A DNA stretch of 34,041 nt, taken from assembly GCA_903871605.1 (NCBI GenBank), contig CAIQHF010000050.1, forward strand, positions 1 through 34,041. Reading direction: 5' to 3'. How positions within the stretch are numbered: the first letter of the stretch is position 1; each line of letters begins with the position of its first letter. This document shows, piece after piece, positions 9,587 through 34,041 of the stretch. Source of the DNA: an uncultured Sphingomonadaceae bacterium (lineage in GTDB: Bacteria; Pseudomonadota; Alphaproteobacteria; Sphingomonadales; Sphingomonadaceae). The notes beneath the pieces were generated by a model. It was not told the DNA's origin, did no database searches, and saw only the letters and a list, made by a program, of their open reading frames with translations. A program made the translations under genes and the position numbers.

Positions 9587-9591
9587 TCCGG

Positions 9592-9621
9592 TTGCGCCGC
9601 CGCCGCGCGGCGCCTATATCG
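9592..9621 (+). promoter_or_regulatory. Candidate promoter of the tmRNA gene
   Basis: TTGCGC at 9592-9597 and TATATC at 9616-9621 are separated by 18 nt. This predicts a start near 9628, where the first structured hairpin of the acceptor RNA begins. Seen by eye only. Confidence 0.45.
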
Positions 9622-9627
9622 GCCATG

Positions 9628-9935
9628 CCGTCCTTCGGGTCGGCTATGGTGATAAATGATATCGGGTGAGGCGCAGCGGACCCGGGGGCAGTACCCGGCG
9701 ACTCCACCACAAGCCTATTGCGAGATAGGCTTCTGACGGGGTCGAACTAGGATCGACGTGTGTACGAGCGCGATGTTTTTGCCCGGCCTGATTGAGCCGT
9801 AAAACCGATCAAAACCACAAGTGCTAACGATAACGAGGCACTCGCGATTGCCGCGTAATCAAGGCCTAACGGCTTAGATTACAAGGCTTGAACGCGGTTC
9901 GGGCCGAACCGGGCAACAGAATCGGACACCGGCGG
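9628..9935 (+). ncRNA. ssrA: Two-piece (circularly permuted) tmRNA, alphaproteobacterial type
   Basis: The acceptor piece comes first. It has a TTCG-capped hairpin at 9628-9645, a T-arm-like stem (CCGGG/CCCGG) and the 3' end CGACTCCACCA at 9700-9710. Next is a spacer hairpin, AAGCCTAT/ATAGGCTT (about 9712-9733), which would be removed during maturation. The coding piece begins GGGGTCG at 9739-9745, which pairs with CGACTCC to rebuild the acceptor stem (one G-U pair), followed by AACTAGGATCGACG. The tag frame is at 9823-9855 with TAA at 9856: ANDNEALAIAA, with resume codon GCT. After the stop, GTAATC/GATTAC and CGGTTC/GAACCG stems follow. tmRNA with SmpB frees stalled ribosomes and tags the peptide for proteolysis. 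The outer ends of both pieces are approximate. The order acceptor-then-coding is the hallmark of the permuted alphaproteobacterial form. Confidence 0.94.
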
Positions 9936-31870: not shown

Positions 31871-32806
31871 ATGATCACGCACCCCGGGGATCGCCCCGTG
31901 CCCGCGCAGCTGCGCGGCGCGGTCGTGGCGCTCGGCAATTTCGACGGCTTCCATGTCGGCCACCAGGCGGTGGTGGGCCGCGCGCTTGCGCTCGCGCGCC
32001 AGACCGGCCGGATGGCGCTGGTCGCGACCTTCGATCCGCACCCCGCGCGGCTGTTCCGCCCCGATTCGCCGCCCTTCCTGCTGACCACGATCGACCAGCG
32101 CTGCGCGCTGTTCGACGCCTTCGGGATGGATGGTGCGATCGTGCTGCCGTTCGACCACGCGATGGCGTCGGTCACCCCCGAGGGGTTCGTCGCCGAATGG
32201 CTCGCCGATCGCGTCGGCGCGAGCGCGGTCGTCACCGGCCATGATTTCACCTTCGGGCGCAACCGCGACGGCGACACCGAGGCGCTCGCCACCATCGGTG
32301 GCCGCTACGGCATCGCCGCCGAGGCGATCGAGGCGGTCGAGGCGGACGGCGGCATCGCCTCCTCGACGCGCATCCGCCAGCATCTCAGGGCGGGCGAGAT
32401 GGCGGCGGCGACGCGGCTGCTCACCCGCCCCTATACGATCGCGGGGATCGTCCAGCATGGCGACAAGGTCGGCCGCACGATCGGCTATCCGACCGCCAAC
32501 ATCGCGATGGGCGACTATCTGCGCCCCGCCTACGGCATCTACGCCGCGCGCGGCCGCCTAGCCGACGGGCGCGTGCTGGACGGCGCCGCGAACCTCGGCA
32601 TCCGCCCGCAATTCGATCCGCCCAAGGAACTGCTCGAGCCGCATTTCTTCGATTTCTCGGGCGATCTCTACGGCCAGCCGGTCGCGGTCGAGCTGATCGC
32701 GCATCTCCGCCCCGAGGCGCGCTTCGACAGCCTCGACGCGCTGATCGCGCAGATGGACGCGGATTGCGTCGAGGCGCGGCGGATTCTTGGCTCCTCCCCT
32801 CCCTGA
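31871..32806 (+). CDS. ribF: Bifunctional riboflavin kinase / FAD synthetase
   Basis: A 311-residue enzyme that phosphorylates riboflavin to FMN and adenylates FMN to FAD. The FAD synthetase half (1-180) has VALGNFDGFHVGHQAVV (the nucleotidyltransferase HxGH-type site), ATFDPHPARLF, VVTGHDFTFGRNRDGD, and SSTRIRQHLRAGEM. The flavokinase half (185-305) has GDKVGRTIGYPTANIA, YGIYAARG, NLGIRPQF, LEPHFFDFSGDLYGQPVAVELIAHLRPEARFDS. ATG 31871 has little recognisable ribosome site (CTATAGCCCGCCCCC), so expression may be low. The last codons and stop (SSPP, TGA 32804) are read from the edge of a family D repeat. It lies upstream of ileS, a common ribF-ileS order in bacteria. Confidence 0.95.
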   Translation: MITHPGDRPVPAQLRGAVVALGNFDGFHVGHQAVVGRALALARQTGRMALVATFDPHPARLFRPDSPPFLLTTIDQRCALFDAFGMDGAIVLPFDHAMASVTPEGFVAEWLADRVGASAVVTGHDFTFGRNRDGDTEALATIGGRYGIAAEAIEAVEADGGIASSTRIRQHLRAGEMAAATRLLTRPYTIAGIVQHGDKVGRTIGYPTANIAMGDYLRPAYGIYAARGRLADGRVLDGAANLGIRPQFDPPKELLEPHFFDFSGDLYGQPVAVELIAHLRPEARFDSLDALIAQMDADCVEARRILGSSPP

Positions 32807-32918
32807 TGATCCTCTCCCCTCCCTGAAAGGGAGGGGTCGGGGGTGGGTTCGCCTGGGGCGGGCGGGAGCGCGATCCGGAGACGAACCCACCCCTAGCCCC
32901 TCCCTTTCAGGGAGGGGG
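32791..32918. repeat. Family D palindromic element between ribF and ileS
   Basis: Main arms: CTCCCCTCCCTGAAAGGGAG (continuing GGGTCGGGGGTGGGTTCG) at 32813-32850 and a reverse complement with three mismatches at 32882-32917. Each arm itself folds (CCTCCCT/AGGGAGG). A truncated extra left copy at 32791-32806 supplies the ribF stop. Confidence 0.88.
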
Positions 32919-32943
32919 ATAGTGCGCTAGAGCGCCCCGCGAC

Positions 32944-34041
32944 ATGGCTGACACTCCCGACACCACGCGCGACTGGCGCGACACCGTCTTCCTGCCGAAG
33001 ACCGACTTCCCGATGAAGGCCGGGCTCGCCGCCAAGGAGCCCGCGATCCTCGCCAAGTGGGAGGCCGACGACCTCTACGGCCAGCTGCGCCTCGCGCGGA
33101 TCGGTGCCGAACGCTTCCTGCTCCACGACGGCCCGCCCTACGCCAATGGCGACATCCACATGGGCCATGCGATGAACAAGGTCTTGAAGGACATCATCGT
33201 CCGGAGCCAGTCGCTGATGGGCAAGGACGCGCCCTACGTCCCCGGCTGGGATTGCCACGGCCTGCCGATCGAGTGGAAGGTCGAGGAGGCCTATCGCGCC
33301 CGCAAGCAGAACAAGGACGACGTCCCCGTCGAGCAGTTCCGCGCCGAGTGCCGCGCCTATGCGCAGAAATGGGTCGACGTGCAGCGCGAGCAGTTCAAGC
33401 GGCTCGGCGTGATGGGCGACTGGGCCGATCCCTATCTGACGATGAAGTATGAGGCCGAGGCGACGATCGTCGGCGAGCTTTTGAAGTTCGCCGAGACCGG
33501 CCAGCTCTATCGCGGCGCCAAGCCGGTGATGTGGAGCCCGGTGGAAAAGACCGCGCTCGCCGAGGCCGAGGTCGAATATGAGGACATCACCTCGACGCAG
33601 ATCGACGTGGCGTTCGAGATCGTCGATTCGCCGATCGAGGAGCTGAAAGGCGCCTACGCGGTGATCTGGACGACGACGCCGTGGACGATCCCGGTGAACC
33701 AGGCTTTGGCGTATGGGCCGGAGGTTGAGTATGCGGCGGTTCGATTTGCCGATGACATGGTGCTTTTGCTCGCCACAGAGTTAATGGACGTAGCGCTGAC
33801 GCGTGCCGGGCGCGCCTACGAAGACGGCTTGATCGTATGGGCTGGCAAAGGCGCCGACCTCGCCGGCACCGTCGCACAGCACCCGATGGCGAAGCGCTTC
33901 TCCCCCCTCCCCTTCAGGGGAGGGGCCGGGGGTGGGGCCGCGCCATCGGACGCAACGCCAGTAGGGGCGCCCCCCCCCCTCAAGGGGAGGGGGGAGAAGC
34001 GCTTCGCCATCGGGTGCTGTGCGACGGTGCCGGCGAGGTCG
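32944..34041 (+). CDS. ileS: Isoleucyl-tRNA synthetase, N-terminal part; frame runs into an inverted repeat at the window end
   Basis: 366 codons are open to the window edge. Residues 1-314 are clear IleRS: DWRDTVFLPKTDFPMKAGLAAKEP, the HIGH-like PYANGDIHMGHAMNK, PGWDCHGLPIEWKVEE, and the editing-domain entry VIWTTTPWTIPVNQALAY. IleRS charges tRNA-Ile and edits valine; the full enzyme is over 900 residues. After HPM (nt 33890) the sequence AKRFSPLPFRGGAGGG... no longer matches the family: it reads a family D-like palindrome and then, from about 33995, the reverse complement of the gene's own preceding bases. The frame has no stop, but the protein here cannot be normal IleRS. Either an assembly fold-back or a true rearrangement is present. 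Codons between 33700 and 33850 also use more TTG, GTT, CTT and TTA than the rest. Confidence 0.9.
   Translation, partial: MADTPDTTRDWRDTVFLPKTDFPMKAGLAAKEPAILAKWEADDLYGQLRLARIGAERFLLHDGPPYANGDIHMGHAMNKVLKDIIVRSQSLMGKDAPYVPGWDCHGLPIEWKVEEAYRARKQNKDDVPVEQFRAECRAYAQKWVDVQREQFKRLGVMGDWADPYLTMKYEAEATIVGELLKFAETGQLYRGAKPVMWSPVEKTALAEAEVEYEDITSTQIDVAFEIVDSPIEELKGAYAVIWTTTPWTIPVNQALAYGPEVEYAAVRFADDMVLLLATELMDVALTRAGRAYEDGLIVWAGKGADLAGTVAQHPMAKRFSPLPFRGGAGGGAAPSDATPVGAPPPLKGRGEKRFAIGCCATVPARS
33855..34041. repeat. Perfect 60-nt inverted repeat in ileS with a family D-like centre
   Basis: Arms 33855-33914 and 33982-34041 are exact reverse complements; the 67-nt loop at 33915-33981 holds GGGGAGGGGCCGGGGGTGGG and a run of 11 C. 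The outer 45 or so nt of each arm is ileS coding sequence. The second arm ends at the last base, so the true repeat may be longer. Confidence 0.95.

Follow-up and report, generated by a model that had tools for sequence, protein, structure and literature searches.

A 60-nt exact inverted repeat that terminates contig C50 of a sphingomonad draft genome within ileS is very probably an assembly chimera (probability, roughly 0.94); the chromosome would read from about position 33939 through the rest of an ∼110-bp palindromic element and on into ileS, as it does on contig C34. Judged from the assembled contigs, the genome itself very probably lacks the fold-back. The palindromic element itself (here called D; this and the other family labels are our own) is real at the level of sequence, being palindromic and open in frame in ileS, and the insert that it is predicted to encode is presumably translated. 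On this reading, the record would lose a spurious rearrangement that destroys a gene, and the case illustrates how a palindrome within coding sequence can interrupt a draft assembly.

Results

The window, i.e., the whole stretch of DNA analyzed (34,041 nt), is the entire contig C50 of a 4,276,050-base, 54-contig draft (G000). At its right end, two 74-nt arms (33855-33928 and 33968-34041), 39 nt apart, are complementary at 71/74 positions (96%). Within them, 33982-34041 (minus strand), which includes the last base of the contig, is the exact reverse complement of 33855-33914 (plus strand). The original prediction described two exact 60-nt arms, the second stopping at the window end, that include ileS coding bases and flank a family D-like center, and all of these details hold. 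Base 34041 lies inside the exact arm; the left arm is genuine ileS coding sequence followed by the left hairpin of the repeat, with the CACCCGATG-to-hairpin stretch reading as in the sister genome G009; and the center represents one member of a family of dispersed palindromes. Of the 108 contig ends, 104 were readable; a search of their terminal 1,500 nt for fold-backs of at least 15 nt at the very end found this one alone. The runners-up, at three ends, measure 14 nt, and a 60-nt exact arm is thus far beyond chance.

The left half of D is in frame at 33898-33939 (plus strand), contains the hairpin CCCCTCCCCTTCAGGGGAGGGG at 33904-33925 (plus strand), and is identical over 33916-33939 to C34:1-24. 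The center of the element (33940-33959, plus strand) agrees with C34 at 19/20 positions. The odd base, 33940, is G on C50 and T on both C34 and the sister genome, and is probably a miscall. Past 33959, C50 leaves the true right half of the element and, at the GGGGAGGGG stem, doubles back along the complementary strand of its left flank. The intervening stretch, 33960-33981 (no strand assigned), is corrupted, matching neither the true right half on C34 nor, exactly, the fold-back arm. The false right arm (33982-34041) ends with the contig, with no unique flank beyond it, and the true continuation is found on C34.

The contig profile search placed the two parts of ileS on two contigs. Positions 2 to 302 of the ileS model TIGR00392 matched C50:33007-33897, and positions 312 to 856 matched C34:136-1875. 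The other nine matches to this model were weaker, fell in other, unbroken frames of 612 to 1,083 aa, and look like related synthetases. C34 starts inside the same palindrome (C34:1-44 equals window 33916-33959 at 43/44 positions) and carries its true right half, with the right-hand hairpin at 66-87 followed by ileS coding sequence. Codon position 1 falls on both window 33916 and C34 base 1, so that the 324 N-terminal codons (32944-33915, plus strand) continue in frame at C34:1. Given the same order along the model and the same codon phase, the two parts make one IleRS of 1,020 aa. C50 and C34 have only 24 bases in exact overlap, all inside the repeat; at their ends there is no overlap, as C50 terminates with the false arm. 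It is thus homology, frame, and synteny, and not the assembly graph, on which the join rests. A ribF-like ORF (31871-32806, plus strand), whose homologues adjoin ileS in relatives, lies upstream of ileS at the C50 end, and a gene that we take to be lspA lies near the start of C34; these are the neighbors of ileS in congeners. Together, homology, frame, and synteny support the join. The fold-back had been expected to destroy IleRS, whereas ileS runs on in frame on C34. The tandem ileS copy proposed to lie elsewhere gains no support either, since the search returned a single ileS, divided between two contigs, and the weaker matches belong to other frames. As for the intact ileS that the original prediction suggested searching for, none was found in one piece, but the halves on C50 and C34 complement each other.

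The genus search (G000 and nine other genomes) recovered ileS with an unbroken frame in 9/9 congeners found. The sister species G009, whose IleRS is 91.7% identical, carries the same element with the same flanks, in frame and on one contig. A different element, with CGTC and GACG at its ends as seen by eye, occupies the same site in G008, and the site is short (HPM-HxxGGFF) in seven congeners. LspA adjoins ileS in all nine congener stretches and RibF in eight, the ninth contig ending there; the single-contig genome G001 has the order RibF-ileS-LspA. The flanks of the empty-site relatives are too diverged for target-site duplications to be told by eye.

Six copies of D measure 101 to 111 bp, with inverted repeats of ∼35 nt at the ends, the inner 22-nt palindrome CCCCTCCCCTTCAGGGGAGGGG in most of them, and a variable center. 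Three seeds (D, E, and U) matched 37 places in 1.80 of the 4.28 Mb, and the element is thus dispersed and multicopy. With at most two mismatches, the 22-nt hairpin pattern matched 24 times in the forward and 23 times in the reverse orientation, largely at shared positions, whereas the backward-read pattern gave no match. A similar element, U (32806-32925, no strand assigned), occupies most of the spacer between ribF and ileS, immediately before the ileS start. GTAG was absent within 12 nt of the outer hairpins on both flanks of all six D copies; CGTC pointing at the stem occurred within 12 nt in two of the six and directly adjoined it in none. The RAYT-type tyrosine transposase family (PF01797), which goes with REPs of the GTAG types, had no match in the readable part of the draft and was present in 5 of 14 control genomes. 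No Rfam model matched the element in the window or in C34:1-6000, where only two tmRNA models scored, both in the window; an alphaproteobacterial tmRNA is located at 9588-9930 (RF01849, 196 bits). D is putatively mobile, by a way of moving that is likewise putative.

An overlap of exactly 141 nt, suggestive of a de Bruijn graph with k = 141, is shared by seven pairs of contig ends; in eight further pairs the overlap is 26 to 136 nt. Six of the 37 element places lie at most 150 bp from a contig end, where 0.32 would be expected (P = 8e-7), in a sample that includes five stretches chosen for containing elements, a bias that works against the result. Leaving aside the right end of C50 and the left end of C34, which had prompted the test, the count is 4/35, with 0.30 expected (P = 2e-4). 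Enrichment near ends is confined to the element family; contig ends as a whole showed no excess of hairpins over interior DNA (Mann-Whitney P = 0.16). The left end of C29 and the right end of C33 share 65 nt, and the left end of C4 and the right end of C34 share 31 nt. Both shared sequences look palindromic, and other assembly gaps may therefore also sit at hairpins.

In IleRS, D adds a proline- and glycine-rich loop of about SPLPFRGGAGGGASPSDATPEGTPHPNPSPEGEG before the GTGLVH motif, in what we take to be the CP1 editing domain. The C34 part aligns with Staphylococcus aureus IleRS (1ffy) from residue 302 onward, the first insert lying upstream of this point. A second insert falls between 1ffy residues 418 and 419 and derives from a second, different in-frame palindromic element on C34 (L017:507-640; site 2). 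The IleRS compared include those of named relatives from 41 of 80 loci, chosen as sphingomonads or near; L076, in which the site-2 motif is absent, was left out, and L111 contributed no site 1. Site 1 measures 10 aa in 40 of 49 IleRS sequences, 13 to 15 aa in three, and 42 to 54 aa in six, and site 2 ranges from 3 to 75 aa (n = 50). In five of the six long sites 1, none of 200 codon shuffles matched the longest exact inverted repeat; in the sixth, from G008, 12.5% of the shuffles did so because its stems are imperfect. The same test gave 2/43 short sites 1 at 0.025 and 16/50 sites 2 at 0.02 or below. In the IleRS of L047 both sites are long (54 and 56 aa), and the predicted structure of this protein is weak (mean pLDDT, 60; pTM, 0.44). 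In this weak model, residues 360-391 and 529-578, inside the insert regions, have pLDDT values below 50 and no secondary structure, which agrees with, but does not prove, disordered loops. A further variable stretch, with peptides such as LDPRVRGDD, was seen upstream of site 1 in the IleRS of L046 and L054 and may represent another palindrome family.

Across the readable draft, elements and ORFs of at least 240 aa that run through them formed 47 pairs in 44 ORFs. Pfam was scanned with 40 of these, the two ileS parts and two others being left out; 27 had no match at 1e-5 and are therefore not counted as genes. UvrA, CarA, and the beta subunit of glycyl-tRNA synthetase have recognized domains that flank or span the element, and in a biotin ligase the element (C28:57043-57130) lies inside the ligase domain. 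RecG (37-bp match), DnaB, an AAA_2 ATPase, a radical SAM/HemN protein, a class V aminotransferase, DUF559, and YlxR are not claimed as hosts, the match being short or outside recognized domains.

The kinds of insert at the CarA, GlyS, and UvrA loops were told apart by eye in alignments with congeners. The CarA loop holds D in G000 and the PSEVEG kind in both G009 and G008; six other congeners have a short loop, and no CarA was obtained from G006. GlyS has D in G000, the CCCTCTCCCC type in G008, a CGTC-ended pair in G003, a further kind in G001, an unclassified insert in G006, and a short loop in G002, G004, G005, and G007. UvrA carries the CCCTCTCCCC type in G000, PSEVEG in G009, VRPEPVEG in G001 and G004, a D-like insert in G008, and an unclassified stretch in G005, and its loop is short in G002, G003, G006, and G007. 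Single loops are thus used by several kinds within one genus. In ileS, carA, uvrA, and glyS, the elements lie in frame in conserved genes, with homology on both sides and empty sites in relatives. Separately, the frame of glyS in G009 (L270) is lost at the loop that holds palindromic inserts in other species, which may be an assembly error in this 80%-complete genome.

Discussion

Among the explanations offered in the original prediction, the one that fits is a fold-back made by the assembly where a contig ends close to a strong hairpin, with the true continuation on C34. The assembly would have broken inside an element whose two 22-bp end hairpins are exact reverse complements, and C50 would then have been extended by faulty sequence that reverses direction at the GGGGAGGGG stem and runs back along the other strand of the C50 left flank. 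We infer that snap-back or dephased reads over the perfect hairpin are the likely read-level cause of the strand switch. Two marks of an artifact were looked for, an arm that ends at the contig end and a true continuation on another contig, and both were found.

A true palindromic rearrangement that broke ileS, with C34 as a separate or second copy, was also on offer. The inverted repeat is literally present in the contig, as this explanation demands, but the single ileS, whose two parts complement each other, speaks against a second copy. The false arm halts at the contig end without the unique flank that a real junction would show, the stretch between the arms deviates from both C34 and G009, and IleRS is essential. 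The sequences seen lend such a rearrangement no support, and we regard it as extremely improbable, save perhaps in a minor subpopulation. In that narrower form, a minority of the molecules in the culture would carry a real hairpin-mediated inverted duplication arising by template switch, and the assembler would have followed their path at the contig end. The geometry would fit snap-back synthesis on the hairpin, in the cell or in the library, with return at the stem, and the false right hairpin begins at 33971, 10 nt before the 33981 predicted from C34. The odd base and the corrupted stretch, however, resemble poor sequence more than a clean junction, and this variant, while less far-fetched than a fixed rearrangement, is still improbable. 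An assembly chimera over the D palindrome is the reading that we retain.

D probably persists in ileS because the editing-domain loop tolerates extra residues, and the added loop would presumably be harmless. In-frame inserts might instead be selected, e.g., as mRNA hairpins that pause translation or through a role of the loop in editing. The use of the same loops by different families in four enzymes could be taken in this sense, but short sites are common (40/49 at site 1) and the peptides that different families encode at a given loop are unrelated. Tolerance of inserts by permissive loops is thus the more economical reading, and selection appears unlikely. More tentatively, and with the odds against it, a few loops in essential enzymes of sphingomonads (IleRS sites 1 and 2, the CarA linker, GlyS, and UvrA) might be true docking sites, where unrelated palindromic families enter, swap, and disappear at about the same codons by targeting or recombination preference and not only because insertion elsewhere is lethal. 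If so, translated hairpin DNA would continually supply core enzymes with new loops. The genus offers a clear case of in-frame coding palindromes with empty sites, an insertion shared by sister species, and differing families at the same loops, and this combination makes preferential hitting testable against insertion survival.

The end of C50 can be compared with the Illumina miscalls after GGC and inverted repeats reported in PMC3622629. Both feature a GC-rich inverted repeat, faulty sequence downstream, and, on C50, a contig break; the paper deals with base miscalls, whereas C50 has a 60-nt exact self-complement and may come from another platform. Regarding the element, the available text of PMC2996958 (PARCEL repeats) contains no match for "sphingo." Among the matches listed in the open-licence literature (titles and abstract openings), PMC3733652 was the only one on coding palindromes, or on several families at one loop, in sphingomonads. 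The Rickettsia palindromic elements (RPE; Ogata et al. 2000, 2002), described in PMC10969869 as ∼150 bp long and in frame in unrelated genes, resemble D in being palindromic and inserted in frame in unrelated genes; going by this description, they differ from D in host order and in their greater length. The closest parallel is provided by the intragenic CGTC- and GTAG-tagged REPs of PMC3733652. These are short palindromes, often inverted dimers, within ORFs, and REP dimers and grouped repeats encode 20 to 30 aa. They occur in tRNA synthetases of Xanthomonas oryzae, E. litoralis (printed lithoralis), and S. alaskensis and in uvrA of O. terrae and Thioalkalivibrio. Two Xanthomonas species carry different REPs at nearly one position of recB, and for other genes that share a functional category the REP sites are reported to differ. 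D shares with these repeats the short palindromic structure and the location inside ORFs, including those of sphingomonad tRNA synthetases, but its six copies have neither GTAG near the ends nor CGTC adjoining the stem. The present genus differs from that description in that single loops hold several families. By analogy, the in-frame palindrome in sphingomonad genes is an already known kind of element, of which D would be a further member.
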